Assembly (NCBI GenBank): GCA_017433405.1
Contig: JAFRHH010000009.1
Coordinates: 1 to 54,440 of the forward strand
Source: Clostridia bacterium
Lineage (GTDB): Bacteria; Bacillota; Clostridia; Christensenellales; Aristaeellaceae
Length of the DNA: 54,440 nt
Reading direction: 5' to 3'
Both the position numbers and the translations under genes were made by a program. The notes beneath the pieces are model-generated. The model was not told the DNA's origin and did no database searches. It saw only the letters and a list, made by a program, of their open reading frames with translations. Positions 14,560 to 45,022 of this stretch are shown in pieces; positions within the stretch are counted from its first letter, which is position 1; each line of letters starts with the position of its first letter.

Positions 14560-15645
14560 ATGGAACCACTGCTGACTCTTGGTCCGCTGCGGGTGACCCC
14601 CTACAGCCTGATTCTCTTTGCCGGGGCCCTGGCGGGAACCCTGCTGGCCGCCCGCAAAAAGGCGGTTCGCCCCGCCCTGCCCCTGGTCATCCTGCTGGCC
14701 CTTCTCTTCGGCCATGTGGTCTGGTGCCTCCTGAACGATACCGCCATGGAATACTATGGCTTCTCCCTGCTGTTTCAGCCCTGGCGCGGAGGCTATACCC
14801 TCTACGGCGCCCTGGCGGGCGGAGCCGTCGGCGCCGCCATCGCCGCGGCCCTGACCCGTCAAAGCTGGCTGGAGCTTCTGGACGCCCTGGCCCCCGGAGC
14901 CGCCGCCGCGCTTTTCTTTGCCCGGCTCGGCGAATATTTTTCCGGCCAGGGCGTCGGGCCGACGGTCGAAAGCGAAGCCCTCTGCTTCTTTCCCCTGACC
15001 TTCCTTCCTTACGGGGAAACCCCGGAAACCGGGGACTGGGTCTACGCCGTCTGGTTCTGGGAGGCCGTGACGGCCCTCGTCCTGCTGGCGGTGCTCCTGC
15101 TCCGCCGGAACAGGCGGCGGGGGGATCCGACCTTCCTGTTCCTCTCCGTCCTGGGCCTTACCCAGATTTTCTTCGAGCAGATCCGGCGGGACGACTATGT
15201 TTCCCTGACGGGCTTCGTCCGCTTCAGCCAGGTGGGCGCCCTGGTTTCCATCCTCGCCGTCATGATCGCGCTGACGGTCATGCGCAGGCCCCGGCCGCTC
15301 CGGGCGGTGCTGAGCTTCGCGGTTCTGGTCTGCGCAGGCCTGACGGTGATGTATGTCGAGTTCGCCCTGGATAAAACCCGCTACTTTCCCTTCCTCTACG
15401 CCGCCACCGCCGCCACCGCCGCTGCCGCCGCAGCGCTGCTTCTCGCGGCCCGGGGGCGGCAGGGAAGGATGAGCGCCGGGATGACCGCCCTGGCCGGGGG
15501 CATCCTGCTCTTCTCCCACGGTCTGGAAGCGCCCACGACGGATATCTATATCATCCTGTACGGCTTCATGGCCTGGGCCCTGGGCTGCATCGGCATCGCC
15601 GTGGCCATCTGCATGCAGCCTCAGCCGAAGGAAGGCAGTCTATGA
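14560..15645 (+). CDS. Lgt-like multi-spanning membrane protein
   Basis: 361 aa, about ten hydrophobic helices. Features recall prolipoprotein diacylglyceryl transferase: GGYTLYGALAGGAVGAA near residue 78, ARLGEYFSGQGVG near 126, and a late ...FSQVGALVS segment near 224. However the HGG motif expected in front of the glycine-rich helix is GGYTLYGG-like without the His, and the Arg-Gly-Asn motif is only partly kept. The protein also carries about 100 extra C-terminal residues with three more helices. It is therefore probably a divergent Lgt-superfamily paralogue rather than the housekeeping enzyme. GAAGGAAG Shine-Dalgarno; its stop overlaps the next start by 4 bp (ATGA), so translation is likely coupled to the PIG-L gene. 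Confidence 0.6.
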   Translation: MEPLLTLGPLRVTPYSLILFAGALAGTLLAARKKAVRPALPLVILLALLFGHVVWCLLNDTAMEYYGFSLLFQPWRGGYTLYGALAGGAVGAAIAAALTRQSWLELLDALAPGAAAALFFARLGEYFSGQGVGPTVESEALCFFPLTFLPYGETPETGDWVYAVWFWEAVTALVLLAVLLLRRNRRRGDPTFLFLSVLGLTQIFFEQIRRDDYVSLTGFVRFSQVGALVSILAVMIALTVMRRPRPLRAVLSFAVLVCAGLTVMYVEFALDKTRYFPFLYAATAATAAAAAALLLAARGRQGRMSAGMTALAGGILLFSHGLEAPTTDIYIILYGFMAWALGCIGIAVAICMQPQPKEGSL

Positions 15646-37483: not shown

Positions 37484-38603
37484 GCACTTCCGCCCCCCTC
37501 AGATCCTCGGGCTTCGCCGGCCCGTAGTATTCGTAATGCCACTCGCAGTATTTCCGGATCGTCTCCCGCAGCGGAATCGTCGGCACGAACCCGTAGTCCC
37601 GCTCCAGGGCCGCGCTGTCCGCGAAGGTCACCGGCACGTCCCCCGGCTGCATCCCCACCAGCTCCCGGTGGGCCTCGAAATCGTAATCCGGCGGCAGCAC
37701 CTTCGCCCGGACCAGCTCCTCCTGCAGGATGCGGACAAATTCCAGCAGGTTCTCCGGCTTCCCCCCGCCGATGTTGTACACCGCGTAGGGCGGAACCGGC
37801 AGCCCGTCCGGCCCCTTCTCCCGGATCGGCGCCCCCTTCATGACGCGGACCACGCCCTCGACGATGTCGTCCACATCCGTGAAATCCCGCTTCATGTCGC
37901 CGTAGTTGAAAATCCGGATCTTCTTCCCGTGAACCAGCTGATTCGCGAAGCCCATCAGCGCCATGTCCGGCCGGGAGGCTCTGGAGATGACCGTGAAGAA
38001 CCGCAGGCCGGTGGAGGGAATGTTGTACAGCTTGCTGTAGCTGTGGGCCAGCAGCTCGTTGGACTTTTTCGTCGCCGCGTACAGGGACACCGGATGATCC
38101 ACCGGATCCTCCGTGCTGAAGGGCACCTTCCGGTTGCCGCCGTAGACCGAGGAAGAGCTGGCGTAAACCAGATGCTCCACCCCCTCCCGCCCGCCGTCCG
38201 TGCTGTGGCGGCAGGCCTCGAGGATCCGGAAGAACCCGATCAGATTGGAATGAATATAGTCCTCCGGATGGTCGATGCTGTAGCGCACCCCGGCCTGGGC
38301 CGCCAGGTTGACCACCACGGCAGGGCGCCAGGCATCGAAGACCTCCCTGACCAGCCCTTCGTCGGCGATGTCCCCCCGGATAAACAGATGCTCCGCGGAG
38401 GCGGACGCCGCCGCCTTTTCGATCAGCTTCAGCCGGTATTCCTTCAGGCCGACGTCATAATAGGGACAGAGGTTGTCCAGGCTGATCACCCTGCCGCCCT
38501 TCATCTCCGAAAGCAGGCGGAGCACCAGGTTCGCCCCGATAAAGCCGGGGCTCCCGGTCACCAGGATCGTTTTTTCGTTCAGGTCGACAGGCTGTTTTTT
38601 CAT
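37473..38603 (-). CDS. NAD-dependent UDP-glucuronate 4-epimerase-like protein
   Basis: 376 aa extended short-chain dehydrogenase. Rossmann motif ILVTGSPGFIGANL near residue 14; DNLCPYYDVGLKEYRL, VNLAAQAGVRYSIDHPEDY and YASSSSVYGGN follow, and the catalytic YxxxK is in SLYAATKKSNELLAHS. These are characteristic of CapI/LpsL UDP-GlcA 4-epimerases. The usual RFFTVYGPxGRPDMA is here RFFTVISRASRPDMAL, a local change in the substrate-binding loop. ATG at 38603 after AGGAGGCTAAAACCC. An earlier in-frame ATG (38900) would run through the promoter and is rejected. First gene of the three-gene operon. Confidence 0.85.
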   Translation of the reverse strand: MKKQPVDLNEKTILVTGSPGFIGANLVLRLLSEMKGGRVISLDNLCPYYDVGLKEYRLKLIEKAAASASAEHLFIRGDIADEGLVREVFDAWRPAVVVNLAAQAGVRYSIDHPEDYIHSNLIGFFRILEACRHSTDGGREGVEHLVYASSSSVYGGNRKVPFSTEDPVDHPVSLYAATKKSNELLAHSYSKLYNIPSTGLRFFTVISRASRPDMALMGFANQLVHGKKIRIFNYGDMKRDFTDVDDIVEGVVRVMKGAPIREKGPDGLPVPPYAVYNIGGGKPENLLEFVRILQEELVRAKVLPPDYDFEAHRELVGMQPGDVPVTFADSAALERDYGFVPTIPLRETIRKYCEWHYEYYGPAKPEDLRGAEVHAL

Positions 38604-38700
38604 GGGTTTTAGCCTCCTGTTCCTCCGGATCCGCCGCCGGCATACGCAGGCTTCTTCCCCCCTGCCGCAAGCCGCTTCGGATTCCGCTTCGCGCCCGTCC

Positions 38701-38729
38701 AGTATAGCATATCCCGCTCCGCGGGACAA
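38701..38729 (-). promoter_or_regulatory. Nucleotide-sugar operon promoter
   Basis: Minus strand TTGTCC (38729-38724) and TATACT (38706-38701), 17 bp spacer, ~97 nt before the epimerase start. Confidence 0.7.
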
Positions 38730-38797
38730 CGACGTCCGGACCGGATCAAAAATGCCGAAAAAGATTGAAGAAAAAACAGAAATCCTTTTCTGAGCCC

Positions 38798-38827
38798 TTG
38801 CGTACAGGGGGATGGCTATGCTATAAT
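38798..38827 (+). promoter_or_regulatory. STAS operon promoter
   Basis: TTGCGT (38798-38803) and perfect TATAAT (38822-38827) with an 18 bp spacer; leader of ~60 nt to AAGGAGGAG and the start. Confidence 0.7.
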
Positions 38828-38892
38828 TTAACGACTTTTTTGATTTACCCCGTCGGGCCCCAAGGTCTGACGCGAACGTAAGGAGGAGCACC

Positions 38893-39189
38893 ATGACCAT
38901 TCAGAAGACTCAGAATGACAAGACCCTGTGCATCGCGCTGGAAGGCCGGCTGGATACCATGACCGCGCCGGAGCTGGAGGCGGAGCTGAATCAGTCCCTC
39001 GGCAGCGTGGATCAGCTGATCTTCGATTTTTCGAAGCTGGACTACATTTCATCCGCCGGCCTGCGGGTGCTGCTTTCCGCCCATAAGATCATGAGCGGCA
39101 AGGGCGGCATGAAGATCACCCATGTGAACGAAATCGTTCAGGAAGTTTTCGATGTCACCGGTTTCTCTGATATTCTGACGATCGAATAA
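38893..39189 (+). CDS. STAS-domain anti-sigma-factor antagonist
   Basis: 98 aa, a single STAS domain of the SpoIIAA/RsbV type. The phosphorylatable Ser is in KLDYISSAGLRVLLSAHKI near residue 56. Such proteins bind and release a partner-switching kinase or anti-sigma factor when unphosphorylated. AAGGAGGAG is 4 nt upstream. The next gene follows after 11 bp. Confidence 0.88.
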   Translation: MTIQKTQNDKTLCIALEGRLDTMTAPELEAELNQSLGSVDQLIFDFSKLDYISSAGLRVLLSAHKIMSGKGGMKITHVNEIVQEVFDVTGFSDILTIE

Positions 39190-39200
39190 GGAGATACTCA

Positions 39201-39797
39201 ATGAAATCTGATGTAATTTCCGTCAGTAACAGGGGACGGAATTTTGAGCCTGCCCTGAAGGAAGCGGAGGCCGTCGCGGCCTATAAGCAGCTTCCCCCCC
39301 GGGCCACCCTTCAGCTCCGGCTGCTGGCCGAGGAAATGATGAGCATGATGCGCTCCATCGCCGGCCCGGCGGAAGGCGAATTCTGGATCGAGGAAAAGAA
39401 CAACAATTTCGTTCTGCATCTGGAGGTTTACAAGCGCCTGAACGAGGAGAAGCGGGAACAGCTGATTTCCTCCTCCTCCTCCGGAAAGAACGAGGCGGAG
39501 CGGGGCTTCCTGGGCAAGATCCGCGCCTTCTTCGACGCCGGGGATCCGGATATGCCGGCGCTGACCCACGGTCCCCTGCTGACCGGCTCCATGGACGGGG
39601 ATTTCTCCTCCATGCAGAGCTGGGAGTGGTCCATGCTGGAATACCGGAACGCGCTTTCGGAGGAGGAGCAGAGCGAAGCGACCCGCGAAGCCTGGGATGA
39701 GCTGGAAAAGTCCGTTCTGGCCAACGTGGCTGACGATGTCAAGGTCAGCATCAAGGGCGCCGAGGTCGAGCTGATGGTATTTAAGAAATTTGCCTGA
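39201..39797 (+). CDS. Putative STAS partner with degenerate HATPase-like N-terminus
   Basis: 198 aa. Residues 30-75 (LQLRLLAEEMMSMMRSIAG, EFWIEEKNNNFVLHLEVY) resemble the N-box helix and following strands of anti-sigma serine kinases. The conserved Asn of the E-x3-N box is not present (EEMMS). Residues ~100-198 have no family I recognise: acidic, with several Met/Trp (GDFSSMQSWEWSML). AAGGAG precedes the ATG. Position directly after a STAS gene suggests a partner-switch module, possibly without kinase activity. It ends at a bidirectional terminator. Confidence 0.55.
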   Translation: MKSDVISVSNRGRNFEPALKEAEAVAAYKQLPPRATLQLRLLAEEMMSMMRSIAGPAEGEFWIEEKNNNFVLHLEVYKRLNEEKREQLISSSSSGKNEAERGFLGKIRAFFDAGDPDMPALTHGPLLTGSMDGDFSSMQSWEWSMLEYRNALSEEEQSEATREAWDELEKSVLANVADDVKVSIKGAEVELMVFKKFA

Positions 39798-39841
39798 GCC
39801 CACACCGGACAATCGGCTCCTGCAGGCGCAGGCCCATCCTG

Positions 39842-39874
39842 AAAAAACCGACTCCCTTTCGGAGCCGGTTTTTC
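39842..39874. terminator. Bidirectional intrinsic terminator
   Basis: AAAAAA-CCGACTCC-CTTTC-GGAGCCGG-TTTTT: 8 bp stem with one mismatch, between the convergent STAS-partner and metI transcripts. Confidence 0.88.
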
Positions 39875-39902
39875 GTTATCCTTTTTTCCTGTTTTCCTTT
39901 TT

Positions 39903-39953
39903 CTCCTCTGTGAACGTCAATTCACGTCTGTCATGCTGCGACGGATGACGGTT
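39903..39953 (-). repeat. RBS-cassette element, orphan copy (h) downstream of metI
   Basis: Minus strand: AACCGTCATCCG...GACAGACGTGAAT-TGAC-GTTCACAGAGGAGAAAAA. No gene follows on this strand; a terminator does. This copy has a Shine-Dalgarno but nothing to translate, which argues that the element is mobile or was left when a downstream gene was lost. Confidence 0.8.
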
Positions 39954-39956
39954 TTC

Positions 39957-40667
39957 TTATTTCTCCTTCAGCCGCCGGTCGCACTTCCGGGCCAGCCAGG
40001 TTCCGAAGGACTGGATCACCTGGGTAATCATCACCAGCACGATCACCGCCAGATACAGGATCGCGAACCGGTACCGCTGGTATCCGTAGGAAAGGGCCAG
40101 CTTGCCCAGGCCGCCGCCGCCCACCGCGCCGCTCATGGCCGTATAGCCCATGATCGTCGTAATGGCCAGCGTGATGTTGGTAATCAGGCTGGGAACGCTC
40201 TCGGGCAGCATCACGTGGAAAACGATCTGCCAGGGGCTCGCGCCCATGGACTGGGCGGCCTCGATGATGTTCGGGTTCACCTCCCGCAGGCTGCTTTCCA
40301 CCAGCCGGGCGATGAACGGAAACGCCGCCACCGTCAGCGGGATGATGGAGGCCACCGTTCCGACGGAGGTCCCCACGATCAGCCGGGTCAGCGGGATGAT
40401 CATGACCATCAGGATAATGAAGGGCACCGACCGCAGCAGGTTGATCAGCACGTTCAGAAAGCTCATCAGCGGCCGGGGCAGCGGACGGATGCCCTTTGGC
40501 TCTCCCGCCACCAGCAGCACGCCCAGCGGGAGCCCCAGCACCACGGCGAACAGCGTCGCCAGCAGGGTCGAATACAGGGTTTCCCAGATCGCAAAGGGGA
40601 ACTCCGTCAGGAAGCACTGCCAGGCCTCCTGCAGCCTTTCCGGCGTAAAAGCATTCGCGAAATTCAT
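39957..40667 (-). CDS. metI: Methionine ABC transporter permease
   Basis: 236 aa, five to six membrane helices. The EAA-type loop GASPWQIVFHVMLPESVPSL and preceding AAQSMGASP are standard for MetI. ATG at 40667 with GGGAGGTGCAGGC upstream, overlapping the metN stop by 4 bp. The earlier in-frame ATG (40853) lies inside metN and is rejected. Confidence 0.93.
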   Translation of the reverse strand: MNFANAFTPERLQEAWQCFLTEFPFAIWETLYSTLLATLFAVVLGLPLGVLLVAGEPKGIRPLPRPLMSFLNVLINLLRSVPFIILMVMIIPLTRLIVGTSVGTVASIIPLTVAAFPFIARLVESSLREVNPNIIEAAQSMGASPWQIVFHVMLPESVPSLITNITLAITTIMGYTAMSGAVGGGGLGKLALSYGYQRYRFAILYLAVIVLVMITQVIQSFGTWLARKCDRRLKEK

Positions 40668-41692
40668 GCCTGCACCTCCCTGGCCGCGTATTCCGCCTCC
40701 ACCTGAACCGTAATGTCCGGCATCCGGCTCAGATAACTGACCGCCCGGGCCAGCTCCTCCGGCCCGCCGGGAATATCCAGCAGCATATAGCCGTAAGCCC
40801 GGTCGCCGACGGAGCGGGTCGAGGCGCCGACGATGCTGGCCAGAATCTGGCACTCCACCGCCATCTTCGCGATCAGCGGCTCCCGGGAAGCGATCGCGCC
40901 GTTGAAGATCACCCGAATCCGCTGTCCGCCCTTCTCGAAGATGTTGACGCTCTCCGCCAGCTCCGGATAGATCAGGTTTCGGGTCGCGTTGGCCCGGGGA
41001 TTCGAGAAGACCTCGCTGACCTCCCCCTCCTCGACCACGCTGCCGTTTTCCAGAATCGCGACCCGGTTGCAGACCTCCTGCACGACGCTCATCTGATGGG
41101 TAATCACGATCACCGTGATCCCCAGCTTCTGATTGATATCCCGGATCAGCTCAAGGATCGCGTGGGTCGTCTTCGGATCCAGCGCCGAGGTCGCCTCGTC
41201 GCACAGGAGCACCTGCGGATCCGTCGCCAGGGCCCGGGCGATGGCGACCCGCTGCTGCTGACCGCCGGAGAGCTGCGCCGGATAGGCGTTGGCCTTGTCC
41301 GGCATCCCCACCAGCTCCAGCAGCTCCAGCGCCCGCTTCTCCGCCTTCGCGCGGTCCACGCCGGCCAGCTTCATCGGCAGCATGACGTTCTTCAGGCAGG
41401 TTCGCTGCATCAGCAGGTTGAAGCCCTGGAAGATCATCGTAATCTTCCGCCGCATGGCGCGGAGCTCCCTTTCCGTCAGGGTTCCCATGTCCTTCCCGTC
41501 CAGCAGGACGCTGCCCTCCGTCGGCCGCTCCAGCATGTTGATACAGCGGACCAGGGTGCTCTTTCCCGCGCCGCTCATGCCGATAATGCCGTAGATATCC
41601 CCGTCCCGCACCGTCAGGTTGATATGCTTGAGCGCGTCCACCGGCCCATCGACCGTGGTGAACAGCTTCGACAGGTTTCTCAGCTCAATCAC
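40664..41692 (-). CDS. metN: Methionine ABC transporter ATP-binding protein
   Basis: 342 aa. Walker A GMSGAGKSTLVRCIN near residue 38, signature LSGGQQQRVAIARAL near 140, Walker B LLCDEATSALD near 160, and the C-terminal NIL/ACT-like regulatory domain (~265-340) that binds methionine and inhibits transport. The start is GTG at 41692 (GTGATTGAGCTG) after GGAGGGGA. It has its own promoter downstream of the metQ terminator. Confidence 0.94.
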   Translation of the reverse strand: MIELRNLSKLFTTVDGPVDALKHINLTVRDGDIYGIIGMSGAGKSTLVRCINMLERPTEGSVLLDGKDMGTLTERELRAMRRKITMIFQGFNLLMQRTCLKNVMLPMKLAGVDRAKAEKRALELLELVGMPDKANAYPAQLSGGQQQRVAIARALATDPQVLLCDEATSALDPKTTHAILELIRDINQKLGITVIVITHQMSVVQEVCNRVAILENGSVVEEGEVSEVFSNPRANATRNLIYPELAESVNIFEKGGQRIRVIFNGAIASREPLIAKMAVECQILASIVGASTRSVGDRAYGYMLLDIPGGPEELARAVSYLSRMPDITVQVEAEYAAREVQA

Positions 41693-41727
41693 GCCGTCCC
41701 CTCCTCCAGCAAAAACATCCGACGCTT

Positions 41728-41757
41728 ATTATATCCCGTTTCCCCGCCTTCTGGCAA
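41728..41757 (-). promoter_or_regulatory. metNI promoter
   Basis: Minus strand TTGCCA (41757-41752) and perfect TATAAT (41733-41728), 18 bp spacer. It directly follows the metQ terminator. Confidence 0.75.
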
Positions 41758-41758
41758 C

Positions 41759-41784
41759 AAAAAACCGGGCGTTTCCGCCCGGCC
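41759..41784 (-). terminator. Intrinsic terminator after metQ
   Basis: Minus strand GGCCGGGCG-GAAA-CGCCCGGTTTTTTG: 7 bp GC stem, GAAA tetraloop and T-run. It separates metQ from metNI. Confidence 0.88.
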
Positions 41785-41847
41785 TTGAAATCGCATGGAG
41801 GATCTTCCCTCAAATCCCGCTTCCCGGGATCCGTGGAAGGCTTCCGC

Positions 41848-42693
41848 TTACTTGCTGATCCCCAGCGCCGCGACGTCGGTCTGCTTGCCGGCGTAGAGGC
41901 CCATGGGCTCCACATGCACGCCCGCGATGGTGACCAGCTTGGTGCCGTTCTGGGCGTTGAAGTCATCCTGATAGGGCTGATGGGCGAAGAAGTTCGCGAA
42001 GACATCGCCCGTGTCCACCATGGTGTTCGGGGTGATATAATCATCCACCACCGTGACCTCCAGGGTGATGTTCTTTTCCGCCAGGATCTTCTTGGCGATA
42101 TCCAGCACGAAGGAATGGGGATCCAGGGTGCAGGCGACCTTGATGGTCTGACCGGCCAGGGCGTCATAGTTCACCGTGGCGTCGTAGCCGTCGGTGGGAT
42201 TCTCCACCACGGAGATAGCCTGGCCTTCATAGCTCTTGAAGTAGTCCACCACCTGCTGGCTCAGCACGGCAGCCGCCAGCGCCTTGGCCATGTCGGAATC
42301 CTTGTTTTCTTCCTTAACGCTGACCACGTTGACATAGGGGGATTCGGCATTCTCGTACAGAAGCGCCGTCAGCGTCTGGCCCGCCTGTGCCGCCGCCAGG
42401 GCGTAGTTGCCGTTGATGATGGCGTAATCCACATCCGCCGCCACGTTGGGCACCATCGCCGCCTCCACCTCGTTGAAGGCGATGTTCAGGGGATTTTCCG
42501 TGATGTCCGCCACCGTCGCGGTGATGCCGGCATCGGGATTGACCTTGATCACGCCGTAGGCCTGCAGAAGCAGGAGGGCACGGCCTTCGTTCGTCGCGTC
42601 ATTGGGAACGGCGATCGTAATCCCGTCCGCCAGGGCGGCCGTCAGGGAAAGGGTCAGAACCAGGGCTACCAGCAGAGAAATCAGTTTCTTCAT
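41848..42693 (-). CDS. metQ: Circularly permuted MetQ methionine-binding protein
   Basis: 281 aa. Signal peptide 1-22 (ends TAALA). Residues 24-160 (ITIAVPNDATNEGRALLLL, DITENPLNIAF, VDYAIINGNYAL, ESPYVNVVSVKEENKDSD) match the second half of ordinary MetQ/NlpA proteins. Residues 181-270 (QTIKVACTLDPHSFVLDIA, DDYITPNTMVDTGDVFANFF, HQPYQDDFNA, GVHVEPMGLYAGK) match the first half. The order is thus reversed, joined by a new linker (~162-180), with new ends at the usual lobe crossover. No lipobox Cys is present, so it is not a typical lipoprotein. It has its own promoter (42724-42752) and terminator. Next gene on the strand is metN. Confidence 0.93.
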   Translation of the reverse strand: MKKLISLLVALVLTLSLTAALADGITIAVPNDATNEGRALLLLQAYGVIKVNPDAGITATVADITENPLNIAFNEVEAAMVPNVAADVDYAIINGNYALAAAQAGQTLTALLYENAESPYVNVVSVKEENKDSDMAKALAAAVLSQQVVDYFKSYEGQAISVVENPTDGYDATVNYDALAGQTIKVACTLDPHSFVLDIAKKILAEKNITLEVTVVDDYITPNTMVDTGDVFANFFAHQPYQDDFNAQNGTKLVTIAGVHVEPMGLYAGKQTDVAALGISK

Positions 42694-42723
42694 TCTTCAT
42701 CGCTCCTTTTTTGATGATGCCTC

Positions 42724-42752
42724 ATTATATTCATCTCCAGAGGGTTTGTCTA
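42724..42752 (-). promoter_or_regulatory. metQ promoter
   Basis: Minus strand TAGACA (42752-42747) and perfect TATAAT (42729-42724), 17 bp spacer. Only ~30 nt to the ATG, so there is no space for a SAM riboswitch or T-box. Confidence 0.8.
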
Positions 42753-42784
42753 TACATCCGAAAAGGAAAAACAAGCAAAATTCA

Positions 42785-42813
42785 TTGTCCGGCGCGGGAT
42801 TTCCGGATATAAT
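42785..42813 (+). promoter_or_regulatory. Possible plus-strand promoter reading antisense through tRNA-Arg
   Basis: TTGTCC (42785-42790) and perfect TATAAT (42808-42813), 17 bp spacer. A transcript would cross the tRNA gene in antisense and could reach the YdcF-like gene at 43147. Confidence 0.4.
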
Positions 42814-42824
42814 GGAGACGGTCA

Positions 42825-42854
42825 GAAAAAGCAGGCCTCCGCAAGGAAGCCTGC
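42825..42854 (-). terminator. Intrinsic terminator of the tRNA-Arg gene
   Basis: Minus strand GCAGGCTTCC-TTGC-GGAGGCCTGC-TTTTTC: 10 bp stem with one mismatch, starting 5 nt after the tRNA 3' end. Confidence 0.9.
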
Positions 42855-42858
42855 CGGA

Positions 42859-42932
42859 TGAGCCAGGAGGGGCTCGAACCCCCGACCTACAGATTCGAAG
42901 TCTGCCACTCTGTCCAACTGAGCTACTGGCCC
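42859..42932 (-). tRNA. tRNA-Arg (anticodon TCG)
   Basis: 74 nt cloverleaf on the minus strand: acceptor GGGCCAG/CTGGCTC (one G-T pair), D-arm AGCTCAGTTGGACAGAG, anticodon stem GCAGA/TCTGT with loop CTTCGAA (anticodon TCG, codon CGA), T-arm GGGGGTTCGAGCCCC and discriminator A. CCA is not encoded. A strong promoter and a terminator frame it as a single-gene unit. Confidence 0.97.
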
Positions 42933-42950
42933 GAACGCTGTTCGGATTTC

Positions 42951-42979
42951 AGTATACCCGGAAACCGAAGGGCTGTCAA
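42951..42979 (-). promoter_or_regulatory. tRNA-Arg promoter
   Basis: Minus strand TTGACA (42979-42974, perfect) and TATACT (42956-42951), 17 bp spacer, ~18 nt before the tRNA 5' end. Confidence 0.9.
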
Positions 42980-43146
42980 TTCAGCCGCCTTCGGAGGAGT
43001 GCCAAACTCCACCCCCTGGCGGACCGCCACGGTTCCGCTCCATTCAGCCGGGCGCCGGGAGGCATCCCCCGCCGCTGAAGGCAGCGTCTGCTTCGGCTGT
43101 CCATACCAAAGGATCAATAAAACAGGAACAGGAGATCATTCATAGA

Positions 43147-44055
43147 ATGGCTATTTTGAAACGAATCATTCTTCTCTGCGCCGCCCTGCTGCTTTCCGGC
43201 TCCTCCGCCCTGGGGGAAGCTGTCCCGCCGCCGATCGACGGACGGAACGCGGAAGCCTTCGGCCGGCTGCTGACCGGCCTGGTTCAGGCCTACGAAGCCC
43301 CTTCCGCTTCCGATGACGACGCCATTGACGCCGCCCTGGCGGACATCCGGTCCGTCAGCGAAGCGGACGGGCTGCTGGCCTCCGCCATCGCGGAGCACTG
43401 GCGGGCGGTCTATCTGAACCCGGATTATTCCCTCCACTGCCTCCCCAGGGGCGCGACCGAGGCGGAATCGCTCGCCGGGAGCGCTATTCCGGACAGCCCC
43501 AGCCACGCCTTCGTCGTCCTGGGCTTCAAGCTGCTGGACGGGGAGATGACCAACGAGCTCAGGGGGCGCTGCAGGGCGGCGGCCGCGGCGGCCCGGTCCT
43601 TTCCGGAAACCTGGCTCATCTGCTCCGGCGGCGCCACGGGCTCCAACAATCCCCAGCACCACACCGAGGGCGGCCTGATGAAGGATTTCCTTGTCAAACG
43701 CTGCGGCATCACGCCGGAGCGGATCCTGACGGACGAGAAGGCCATGACCACCCTGGACAACGCCCGGAAAACCTTCGAAATTCTGGAATCCTACGGGATT
43801 GGGACCATCACCATCGTAACCTCCTCCTATCATCAGCGGTGGGGGCAGATGGTCTACCTGGCCATGTCGGCCCTGAACCGGAACCGGGGCGGATATTCCG
43901 TGGAAATTATCGATAACTACTGCTATGAAACGAAGGCCCCGGAGACCTATCAGCACGACGACCGCTTCGCGGCCAACCAGATCGCCGAGCTGCTGGAGCT
44001 TCCCACCGAGGTCACCTCGGCCATGCGAAAGGCCTTCCGCCGCATCCGCCCCTGA
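43147..44055 (+). CDS. Exported YdcF/SanA-like (DUF218) protein
   Basis: 302 aa. Signal peptide 1-~24 (IILLCAALLLSGSSALG). The DUF218 domain starts near residue 118: HAFVVLGFKLLDGEMTNEL, WLICSGGATGSNN, EGGLMKDFLVKRCGI, DEKAMTTLDNARKTFEIL, TSSYHQRWGQM. These match the ordered motifs of the family, linked to envelope barrier maintenance and glycan handling in other bacteria. An N-terminal ~90-residue helical region precedes it. GGAG lies 12-15 nt upstream of the ATG, a long spacing. The next gene follows 27 bp later. Confidence 0.82.
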   Translation: MAILKRIILLCAALLLSGSSALGEAVPPPIDGRNAEAFGRLLTGLVQAYEAPSASDDDAIDAALADIRSVSEADGLLASAIAEHWRAVYLNPDYSLHCLPRGATEAESLAGSAIPDSPSHAFVVLGFKLLDGEMTNELRGRCRAAAAAARSFPETWLICSGGATGSNNPQHHTEGGLMKDFLVKRCGITPERILTDEKAMTTLDNARKTFEILESYGIGTITIVTSSYHQRWGQMVYLAMSALNRNRGGYSVEIIDNYCYETKAPETYQHDDRFAANQIAELLELPTEVTSAMRKAFRRIRP

Positions 44056-44082
44056 AAACCCACGGAAGGAGGTTCCATACAG

Positions 44083-44400
44083 ATGGATCAGCAGGAAGCC
44101 CTGGCGGAAAGCCGGCGGGATCACCCCGGCAGCCGCTCCCTCCGCTGCATCTGGCACTGCGGCCTGATCAACGGTAAAATCCGCGAGGCGGCCCGCCTCG
44201 GAGAAACCAGCCTCGCACTGGATTTTCCCCCGAAGCACTATGTCGTCACGCACCGGGATCTGTTTATGAAGCTCTACGCGGAACAGGGCTACCGGGTCCG
44301 CTTCGACCCGGATTACCGATATATCCAGCCAAGCAAGTGGACCTTTACCCTCTCCTGGGATCAGGTCCCGCCCCTCTCCGGCGAAGGCTCCGTGTCGTAA
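44083..44400 (+). CDS. Small hypothetical protein
   Basis: 105 aa with a strong Shine-Dalgarno (GGAAGGAGG) and likely co-transcribed with the YdcF-like gene. It is soluble, rich in Arg/Trp/Tyr/His, with SLRCIWHCGLINGKIREAA near residue 20 and a YRVRFDPDYRYIQPSKWTF segment near 70. No family recognised. The stop is 22 bp from the convergent uracil-DNA glycosylase stop, and no terminator is visible between them. Confidence 0.7.
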   Translation: MDQQEALAESRRDHPGSRSLRCIWHCGLINGKIREAARLGETSLALDFPPKHYVVTHRDLFMKLYAEQGYRVRFDPDYRYIQPSKWTFTLSWDQVPPLSGEGSVS

Positions 44401-44422
44401 GGAGTCAGGGAGGATTTCCACT

Positions 44423-45022
44423 TCAATCCTGTTCCTCATTCGCTTCGTAAAGATCCCGATAAAGGCCCAGTTCCTTCAGCTTTTCCCGCAGGCTCTTCAT
44501 GTCCTCCCAGGCCTGCGGTTTTTTCGTCTCGTCCCGCAGAAGCGCCGAGGGATGGTAGGTCGGCATCATCCAGACGCCCTTTCGCTCCGTCCATCTTCCC
44601 CGTTCCCGGGTGATCCGGATTTCCGGATCCAGCAGCGCCTTTGCCGCCGTGCTGCCCAGCAGCACGATGACCTTCGGGCGGACCAGCCAGGTCTGATTCC
44701 GCAGGTGGATCCGGCAGGCCGCCGCCTCCTCCGGCGTCGGAACCCGGTTTCCCGGTGGGCGGCACTTCACCACGTTGCAGATATAGACCCGCTCCCGGGG
44801 CAGGCCGATGGCCTGCAGCATCCTCGTCAGCAGCTGGCCTGCCGCCCCGACGAAGGCCAGGCCCTGCTCATCCTCCGTCTGCCCCGGCCCCTCGCCGATC
44901 AGCATCAGCGGCGACCGTCGATCCCCCTGGCCGGGAACCTTGTGCTGAATGCCGCGGCAGAGCGAACACAGCCGGCAGGCCTCCACCTGCTCCTCAAAAA
45001 GCTCCCAGGTCATCTCCGGCAT
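44423..45022 (-). CDS. Family 4 (thermostable-type) uracil-DNA glycosylase
   Basis: 199 aa. Fe-S cluster Cys pair CRLCSLC at residues 16-22, catalytic motif 1 GEGPGQTEDEQGLAFVG near 43, a further cluster Cys pair around VVKCRPPGNR and AACRIH, and motif 2 PTYHPSALLR near 155. Removes uracil from DNA in base-excision repair. Upstream, between 45023 and 45125, only a decayed copy of the Rpn-fragment 3' end is seen. Confidence 0.92.
   Translation of the reverse strand: MPEMTWELFEEQVEACRLCSLCRGIQHKVPGQGDRRSPLMLIGEGPGQTEDEQGLAFVGAAGQLLTRMLQAIGLPRERVYICNVVKCRPPGNRVPTPEEAAACRIHLRNQTWLVRPKVIVLLGSTAAKALLDPEIRITRERGRWTERKGVWMMPTYHPSALLRDETKKPQAWEDMKSLREKLKELGLYRDLYEANEEQD

Follow-up and report, generated by a model that had tools for sequence, protein, structure and literature searches.

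The question raised by this locus is whether a gene of the MetQ/NlpA family, in which the two halves of the product stand in reversed order, encodes a genuine methionine-binding protein, and how such an order could have arisen. The gene lies in the window, i.e., the whole stretch of 54,440 nucleotides of Clostridia bacterium DNA that was analysed; its features are collected in Table 1. The preliminary description had called the frame intact without giving the strand; the open reading frame is indeed intact and is read on the minus strand. PF03180 (NlpA lipoprotein) matches the product with 205.3 bits (cut-off 27, Pfam) in two stretches; there is no single collinear match and the halves are reversed, so the protein is filed as a permuted variant of MetQ/NlpA and not as an ordinary member. 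In the search of the own genome, positions 42636-42220 correspond to profile positions 93-231 (E 1.8e-37) and positions 42144-41863, in the same frame, to profile positions 1-94 (E 1.4e-22). This gene is the sole PF03180 match in its assembly (92 contigs, 89% complete). Beside the two halves, the half-profiles leave the linker and a tail of 6 residues; the chain terminates 11 residues past YAGK.

Table 1. Features of the permuted metQ gene and of its operon (positions in the window)
Feature	Position	Strand	Basis
Permuted metQ, 281 aa, entire coding sequence	41848..42693	-	Pfam and genome profile search
Signal peptide-like leader MKKLISLLVALVLTLSLTAALADG, residues 1-23, without cysteine or lipobox	42625..42693	-	translation, lipobox script
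Normally second segment (PND-TNEGR, INGNY, SPYVN), now first, residues 24-163	42205..42624	-	half-profile (20-163), PF03180 93-231
Linker of 18 residues ENPTDGYDATVNYDALAG bridging the old C- and N-termini, residues 164-181	42151..42204	-	half-profiles
Normally first segment (IKVACT, DDYITPN, FFAHQPY, VEPMGLYAGK), now last, residues 182-281	41851..42150	-	half-profile (182-275), PF03180 1-94
Ribosome-binding-site-like AAAGGAG, 9 nt upstream of ATG	42703..42709	-	sequence read directly
Sigma-70-like promoter TAGACA-17-TATAAT	42724..42752	-	consensus match only
Terminator-like hairpin CCGGGCG-GAAA-CGCCCGG and six U, between metQ and metN	41759..41782	-	sequence, folding
metN, ABC ATPase with C-terminal NIL domain	40664..41692	-	ABC_MetN 350 bits, NIL 53.5 bits
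metI permease, 236 aa from the ATG overlapping the metN stop	39957..40667	-	MetI model NF008049, start by eye

The comparison with solved structures gives the same picture. With phmmer, 22 distinct PDB sequences match the protein, every one in two stretches, and the three alignments displayed are reversed: query residues from 181, 182 or 184 to 271 fall on chain residues 2-100, and query residues 21-158 or 21-160 on chain residues 96-249. No solved permuted relative was found among the PDB chains, none of which aligns full-length in one stretch. Separate alignment of segments 24-160 and 181-270 had been proposed before; these ranges agree with the half-profile limits within a few residues, the segments are not collinear with MetQ, and the old ends are joined by the 18 residues that had been estimated approximately. 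The known MetQ/NlpA proteins (E. coli 4YAH/6CVL, Neisseria 3IR1/6DZX, Treponema Tp32 1XS5, and 4IB2, which we take to be an R. gnavus protein) match both halves with high scores, and the window protein shares with them the ligand residues and the MetN-MetI operon. It differs in the reversed halves, in the linker at the old ends and in the new ends at the junction between the halves. The NCBI MetQ models stay below their curated cut-offs (NF008285, 137.4 against 374 bits, and TIGR00363, 135.7 against 228.85, each in two stretches; a further model, 118 against 487), as is expected of a permuted chain. A break at the lobe crossover would fit the halves of the PF03180 profile. We believe that the window protein is, with high probability, the methionine-binding protein of a MetNI-type ABC importer in a naturally occurring, circularly permuted form.

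Relatives of the same order were sought, as the preliminary description had advised. The 294 loci collected give 257 distinct cores after merging of identical ones (four partial frames on short contigs or broken, L142, L188, L285 and L287, were left out): 107 in permuted clade A, to which the window protein belongs, 19 in permuted clade B and 131 collinear. The permuted order claimed earlier is borne out by profile halves that match in reverse within one open frame and by these 107 distinct relatives with a linker of nearly constant length; what had been overlooked is the size of the family, the second permuted lineage and a collinear paralogue adjoining this second kind. The clade A linker has 18 residues in 100 proteins, 17 in five and 19 in two, with a common pattern around DY-x-x-L-x-G; that of clade B has 26-30 residues. 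Clade A proteins end just past the YAGK-QTDL region and clade B proteins extend some residues further, which places the break within about ten residues in both.

We presume that the order arose by duplication of the metQ gene followed by permutation, and that this would have occurred at least twice at the same region, once in each clade. Tandem duplication with subsequent trimming, suggested earlier, is our best guess as to the route. The first part of this suggestion stands: in the class, collinear metQ genes do stand in tandem as pairs or triples, with head-to-tail copies in at least six genomes (G151, G177, G181, G300, G391, G409). The second part gained no such witness, as no fused intermediate with 1.5 or 2 copies was found among the loci examined. 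Two loci considered as split intermediates because of unequal frame lengths (L269, L271) proved to be whole permuted genes. A frame of 811 aa (L276), considered as a fusion with another domain, has in Pfam only PF03180 near its end, and its remainder is probably just open frame. Fission of the gene and fusion of the half-genes is the other recognised route to permutation (according to an excerpt of PMC3320104), and the break does sit between two compact halves; we nonetheless consider it unlikely here, considering that half-only frames are limited to the four short-contig or broken cases, that no family of free halves was seen, and that tandem collinear copies do exist.

Type II binding proteins of the MetQ class have two crossovers between the lobes and both termini in lobe 1. 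The permuted chain would fold into the usual two-lobed shape, with the linker bridging the old ends, both presumably in lobe 1, and with the new ends at the first lobe-to-lobe crossover; each lobe would thus be one continuous piece, and one covalent strand, the one after SPYVN, would connect the lobes instead of two. Methionine would be caught in the cleft and passed to MetNI as usual. The hinge opening and the 24-degree twist of MetQ on MetNI, described in an excerpt of PMC6739813, suggest as a hypothesis that a one-strand hinge could matter for this motion.

The ligand site can be followed residue by residue. The same excerpt lists as methionine contacts of Neisseria MetQ R156, N213 and N238 on one lobe and Y81, F98, H100 and Y103 on the other, and equates N238 with E. 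coli N229. The latter is the N of SPYVN; when aligned to a clade B query, 4YAH shows N at this place and the 6CVL chain shows A. The window protein keeps all seven contacts, as Y219, F236, H238, Y241, R38, N94 and N122, mapped by motif spacing and, for N122, through the same 4YAH/6CVL alignment of the clade B query; the counterpart of N213 could be N96 rather than N94, both being present and N96 also being invariant in clade A. The seven contacts (Y, F, H, Y / R, N, N) are kept in 107 of 107 clade A proteins, in 17 of 19 of clade B (the exceptions are L275 and L286) and in 92 of 131 collinear ones. One exception, L286 (genome G804), is a second, diverged clade B gene with the FxH contacts changed to C and T, and metN and metI are absent within about 3.5 kb of it.

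Permuted metQ is the first gene of a metQ-metN-metI set, all on the minus strand. The neighbours also fall below the NCBI cut-offs (ABC_MetN, 499.7 bits for the score in Table 1; NF008049, 201.5 against 212 bits, scored on a longer GTG frame). Where a locus extends 2.3 kb or more to each side of the gene, MetN and MetI are encoded on its strand in 62 of 65 cases in clade A and in 12 of 13 in clade B; among the 42 clade A loci with shorter flanks, both are present in 21, MetN only in 20 and neither in one. A promoter and a terminator had been claimed, and candidates for both are present. The promoter-like site agrees with the consensus at 11 of 12 positions, and the scan gave 4 such sites against 0.9 in shuffles. 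The GC-rich hairpin with its U run was missed by the pattern scan and found by folding (positions 41755-41800, -20.1 kcal/mol, z -3.1). A hairpin between the gene for a binding protein and those for its transporter is common where the cell makes an excess of binding protein.

Rfam gave no SAM riboswitch at the gathering score, nor any other riboswitch, at window positions 38000-44500; none was found in 14 clade A loci, where the search gave one T-box, tRNAs and Gut-1, nor in 18 further loci, where it came back empty. T-box leaders precede permuted metQ in two Faecalibacterium-like loci, L085 (4562-4831, 93.5 bits) and L107 (4572-4845, 91.6 bits, slightly under the gathering score of 93). In both, A-AUG-G stands directly past the conserved GAA, for which reason the specifier is read as AUG, i.e., Met; the rule locating it past GAA is our assumption, with the Rfam consensus as a guide. 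T-boxes are rare: their core motif was found upstream of 2 clade A genes out of 105, and upstream of none of 129 collinear or 19 clade B genes.

Could the permuted protein have left methionine for a methionine derivative, a short peptide or another ligand? MetNI-type systems carry several substrates (so an excerpt of PMC6739813), and a collinear paralogue, clade C, in which four of the seven contacts are missing, adjoins clade B in five genomes; its loss of contacts implies that the MetQ family does change ligand. A change of this kind is quite improbable in the permuted proteins, considering that the seven contacts are present in every clade A protein, that the specifier of the two T-boxes is read as AUG and that the window metN carries a NIL domain. 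The preferred reading is that of a methionine-binding protein, and the remark that it is probably functional gains support from the kept ligand residues, from the metN-metI neighbours and from its being the sole PF03180 protein of many genomes.

The rates of substitution give no clean picture. By a simple method, dN/dS takes values of 0.05-0.33 for 11 of the 12 most closely related pairs and of 0.81 for the remaining one; over 1889 pairs the median is 0.43 and values reach 1.22. For the window gene and the three genes closest to it in silent distance the values are 0.38-0.77, and silent changes look saturated there. The silent and replacement distances of the closest pairs argue for constraint.

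Clade C itself is a divergent collinear PF03180 paralogue recognised by the motif KYSKSQGPYTELF in members of the genus. The four contacts are replaced by L, E, T and L in 9 of 131 collinear proteins: L013, L015, L016, L045 and L049, in tandem with clade B, and L012, L014, L289 and L290. Five genomes thereby have one ABC locus with a permuted clade B and a collinear clade C binding protein. The replaced contacts suggest that the clade C protein probably serves another ligand.

Did the permutation occur once or twice? For a tree, 79 representatives were rearranged to the collinear order (242 columns, IQ-TREE). Clade A is monophyletic (100/98), as is clade B (100/100); B nests stepwise among collinear proteins, in a subfamily of 22 rows (100/98), and the sister of A is a collinear protein from Coriobacteriaceae (98/93). 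The full tree, in which the bootstrap is unsettled (0.965) and one collinear branch is long, requires two changes of order, and 0% of 200 bootstrap trees are content with one. Each half of the protein, taken alone, also needs two changes, with a support for B of only 84 in the first-half tree. A tree in which both clades are forced into one group is worse by 96.8 log units (p-AU 8.4e-5). Identity between A and B does not exceed 36%; the nearest collinear protein is 45-65% identical to A and 45-51% to B. Since the two clades lie in different collinear subfamilies and a single origin is rejected, the same break would have been used twice, and a second independent permutation event in the MetQ family is probable on these trees. 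One permuted ancestor, with the collinear neighbours misplaced or permuted back, would account for the common break region and for the presence of both clades within one bacterial family and, in G010, G011 and G036, within one genome, and linkers of 17-19 and 26-30 residues could have drifted apart; against the identities, the constraint test and the two changes forced on the full tree as well as on either half-tree, we regard it as very improbable.

The permuted order is widespread. Within the genus, PF03180 was matched in 34 of 37 genomes (G000-G036), each with at least one permuted gene; clade A is present in 30 and clade B in 7, with both in the three genomes just mentioned, and in G012 and G020 an ordinary collinear MetQ replaces clade A. 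Of 24 further genomes of the order, 7 are matched, in every case by collinear proteins; the family survey gave a match in 72 of 80 genomes, with both orders present. The class survey gave PF03180 matches in 188 of 391 genomes and full-length matches to the clade A model in 18 of the 391, the own genome included (428-477 bits). It is bimodal, the next matches to this model being collinear halves with at most 186 bits. When 341 genomes were searched with the clade B model, one further genome, G337, was matched (472 bits). Three of 299 genomes sampled from the phylum have clade A, and one of the three, G487, does not belong to the class. In 17 of the 18 clade A genomes of the class the permuted gene accounts for all PF03180 matches among those listed (G189 has a third), and it is the sole one in all 8 genomes of the named loci, five of which are Faecalibacterium.

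Outside the phylum the survey is based solely on a contig scan with one genome per species. Among the best 80 of its 574 confirmed stretches, 62 loci are permuted and 18 collinear, the latter labelled as spirochaetes, Fibrobacter and Coriobacteriaceae; the permuted ones include F. prausnitzii (L093, L096, L098), F. gallinarum, F. longum and a Faecalibacterium chromosome titled complete (NZ_CP094466.1, L112). Permuted metQ is also present in the single-contig genomes G022, G035 and G447. Three permuted loci labelled as Anaerolineaceae or Chloroflexi (L053, L054, L056) are 76-77% identical to the window protein and probably come from mislabelled MAGs. An assembly or chimera artefact, or a decaying pseudogene, has next to no probability and is already refuted for the family: the window genome is fragmented and many relatives are MAGs, but the order recurs in those 62 loci, including named isolates and the chromosome titled complete, with open frames and, in clade A, invariant ligand residues.

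A broader proposal is that the first MetQ crossover is a natural permutation hot spot, cut at least twice, each cut leaving continuous lobes joined by a single strand, and that such proteins took the place of the ordinary form as sole MetQ in lineages among which is Faecalibacterium; we advance it tentatively, as possible rather than expected. If it is true, a one-strand hinge that carries the leader may make the twist of the lobes on docking to MetNI easier, or may alter how the protein is anchored. Natural circular permutations are already known; in MetQ, a single site of a single family would have been permuted on two apparently independent occasions, collinear relatives of both lineages survive at the identities given above, and the bacteria are culturable gut inhabitants. 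This allows a direct test of whether history or function favours a break site, and lets one ask how a binding protein with one hinge strand works and what its linker must do. It makes permuted MetQ a good test case for natural rearrangement of a protein with its function retained. For annotation, the NCBI MetQ models miss it, and tools expecting a single collinear match would take it for a fragment or a duplicate.

The nearest precedent is MglB-2 of Treponema pallidum (Tp0684), a natural circularly permuted glucose-binding protein (PMC4990184, in part). According to the same part of that paper, it is likewise a binding protein of an ABC importer permuted near the hinge, it has relatives in Gram-positive gut bacteria, and its binding is retained by experiment. 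The two are unrelated: MglB-2 is a sugar-binding protein of type I, or cluster B, and belongs to the permuted type Ic, whereas the window protein has PF03180 only (Pfam) and no sugar-binding homology. The permutation of MglB-2 adds a fourth crossover, while that of MetQ would reduce two to one; also, unlike MglB-2 as presented there, permuted MetQ would represent two independent events at one break region and has close collinear sisters. That such proteins can tolerate permutation is known from engineered binding proteins and from permuted halves of the ribose-binding protein (PMC9815098, in part); these are laboratory constructs of other families, whereas permuted MetQ is natural. The earlier remark that no description of a permuted MetQ was known holds for the open-access literature, where none of a permuted MetQ/NlpA was found, subscription journals lying mostly outside the search; the words lipoprotein, periplasmic and substrate-binding are all absent from a 2025 preprint on the detection of permutations (PMC12667903). 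Permuted MetQ is a real, widespread natural circular permutation, unreported as far as searched.

As to the leader, lipidation matters for Neisseria and E. coli MetQ; lipidated MetQ stimulates the transporter most and the unlipidated pre-protein with its signal sequence does so partly (both from an excerpt of PMC8416018). Unlike lipidated MetQ, the window protein has no lipobox; its leader lacks the lipidation cysteine, so the protein would be either held by an uncleaved leader or released. By a rough script, a lipobox is present in 45 of 106 clade A, 2 of 18 clade B and 75 of 131 collinear proteins. It is thus missing in 61 clade A and also in 56 of the 131 collinear proteins, and on the latter ground its absence is not due to the permutation. 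A genus devoid of lipidation was considered as the cause and rejected, considering that Lgt (PF01790) is matched in 13 of 13 genus genomes, the weaker matches among which may be other proteins; the window has a weak second Lgt-family match (14569-15273, plus strand, 87.6 bits). Anchoring was suggested as the driver of the MglB-2 permutation (PMC4990184, in part); the leaders of permuted MetQ appear to give this no general support.

Leaders vary within clade A. Among its 45 lipobox-bearing proteins, 13 have a Tat-like start by the script, e.g., in F. prausnitzii; in L093 (4860-5774) and other Faecalibacterium loci the permuted MetQ has a twin-arginine-like lipoprotein signal (PF10518, 29.2 bits). 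A MetQ-type binding protein is usually taken to be exported by Sec, so that a Tat-like signal is unusual. In L040 (3739-4755) a lipobox is followed by a long EAPAAEE-type repeat spacer and then by the permuted domain, and in L030, L032 and L035 the leader resembles a plain membrane anchor without an evident cleavage site.

Near the operon, the window holds a tRNA (42859-42932, minus strand), a DUF218 protein (43147-44055, plus strand), a uracil-DNA glycosylase superfamily protein (44423-45022, minus strand) and a PD-(D/E)XK nuclease family transposase (PF12784; 45345-46211, minus strand) with an REEG repeat stretch near its end.
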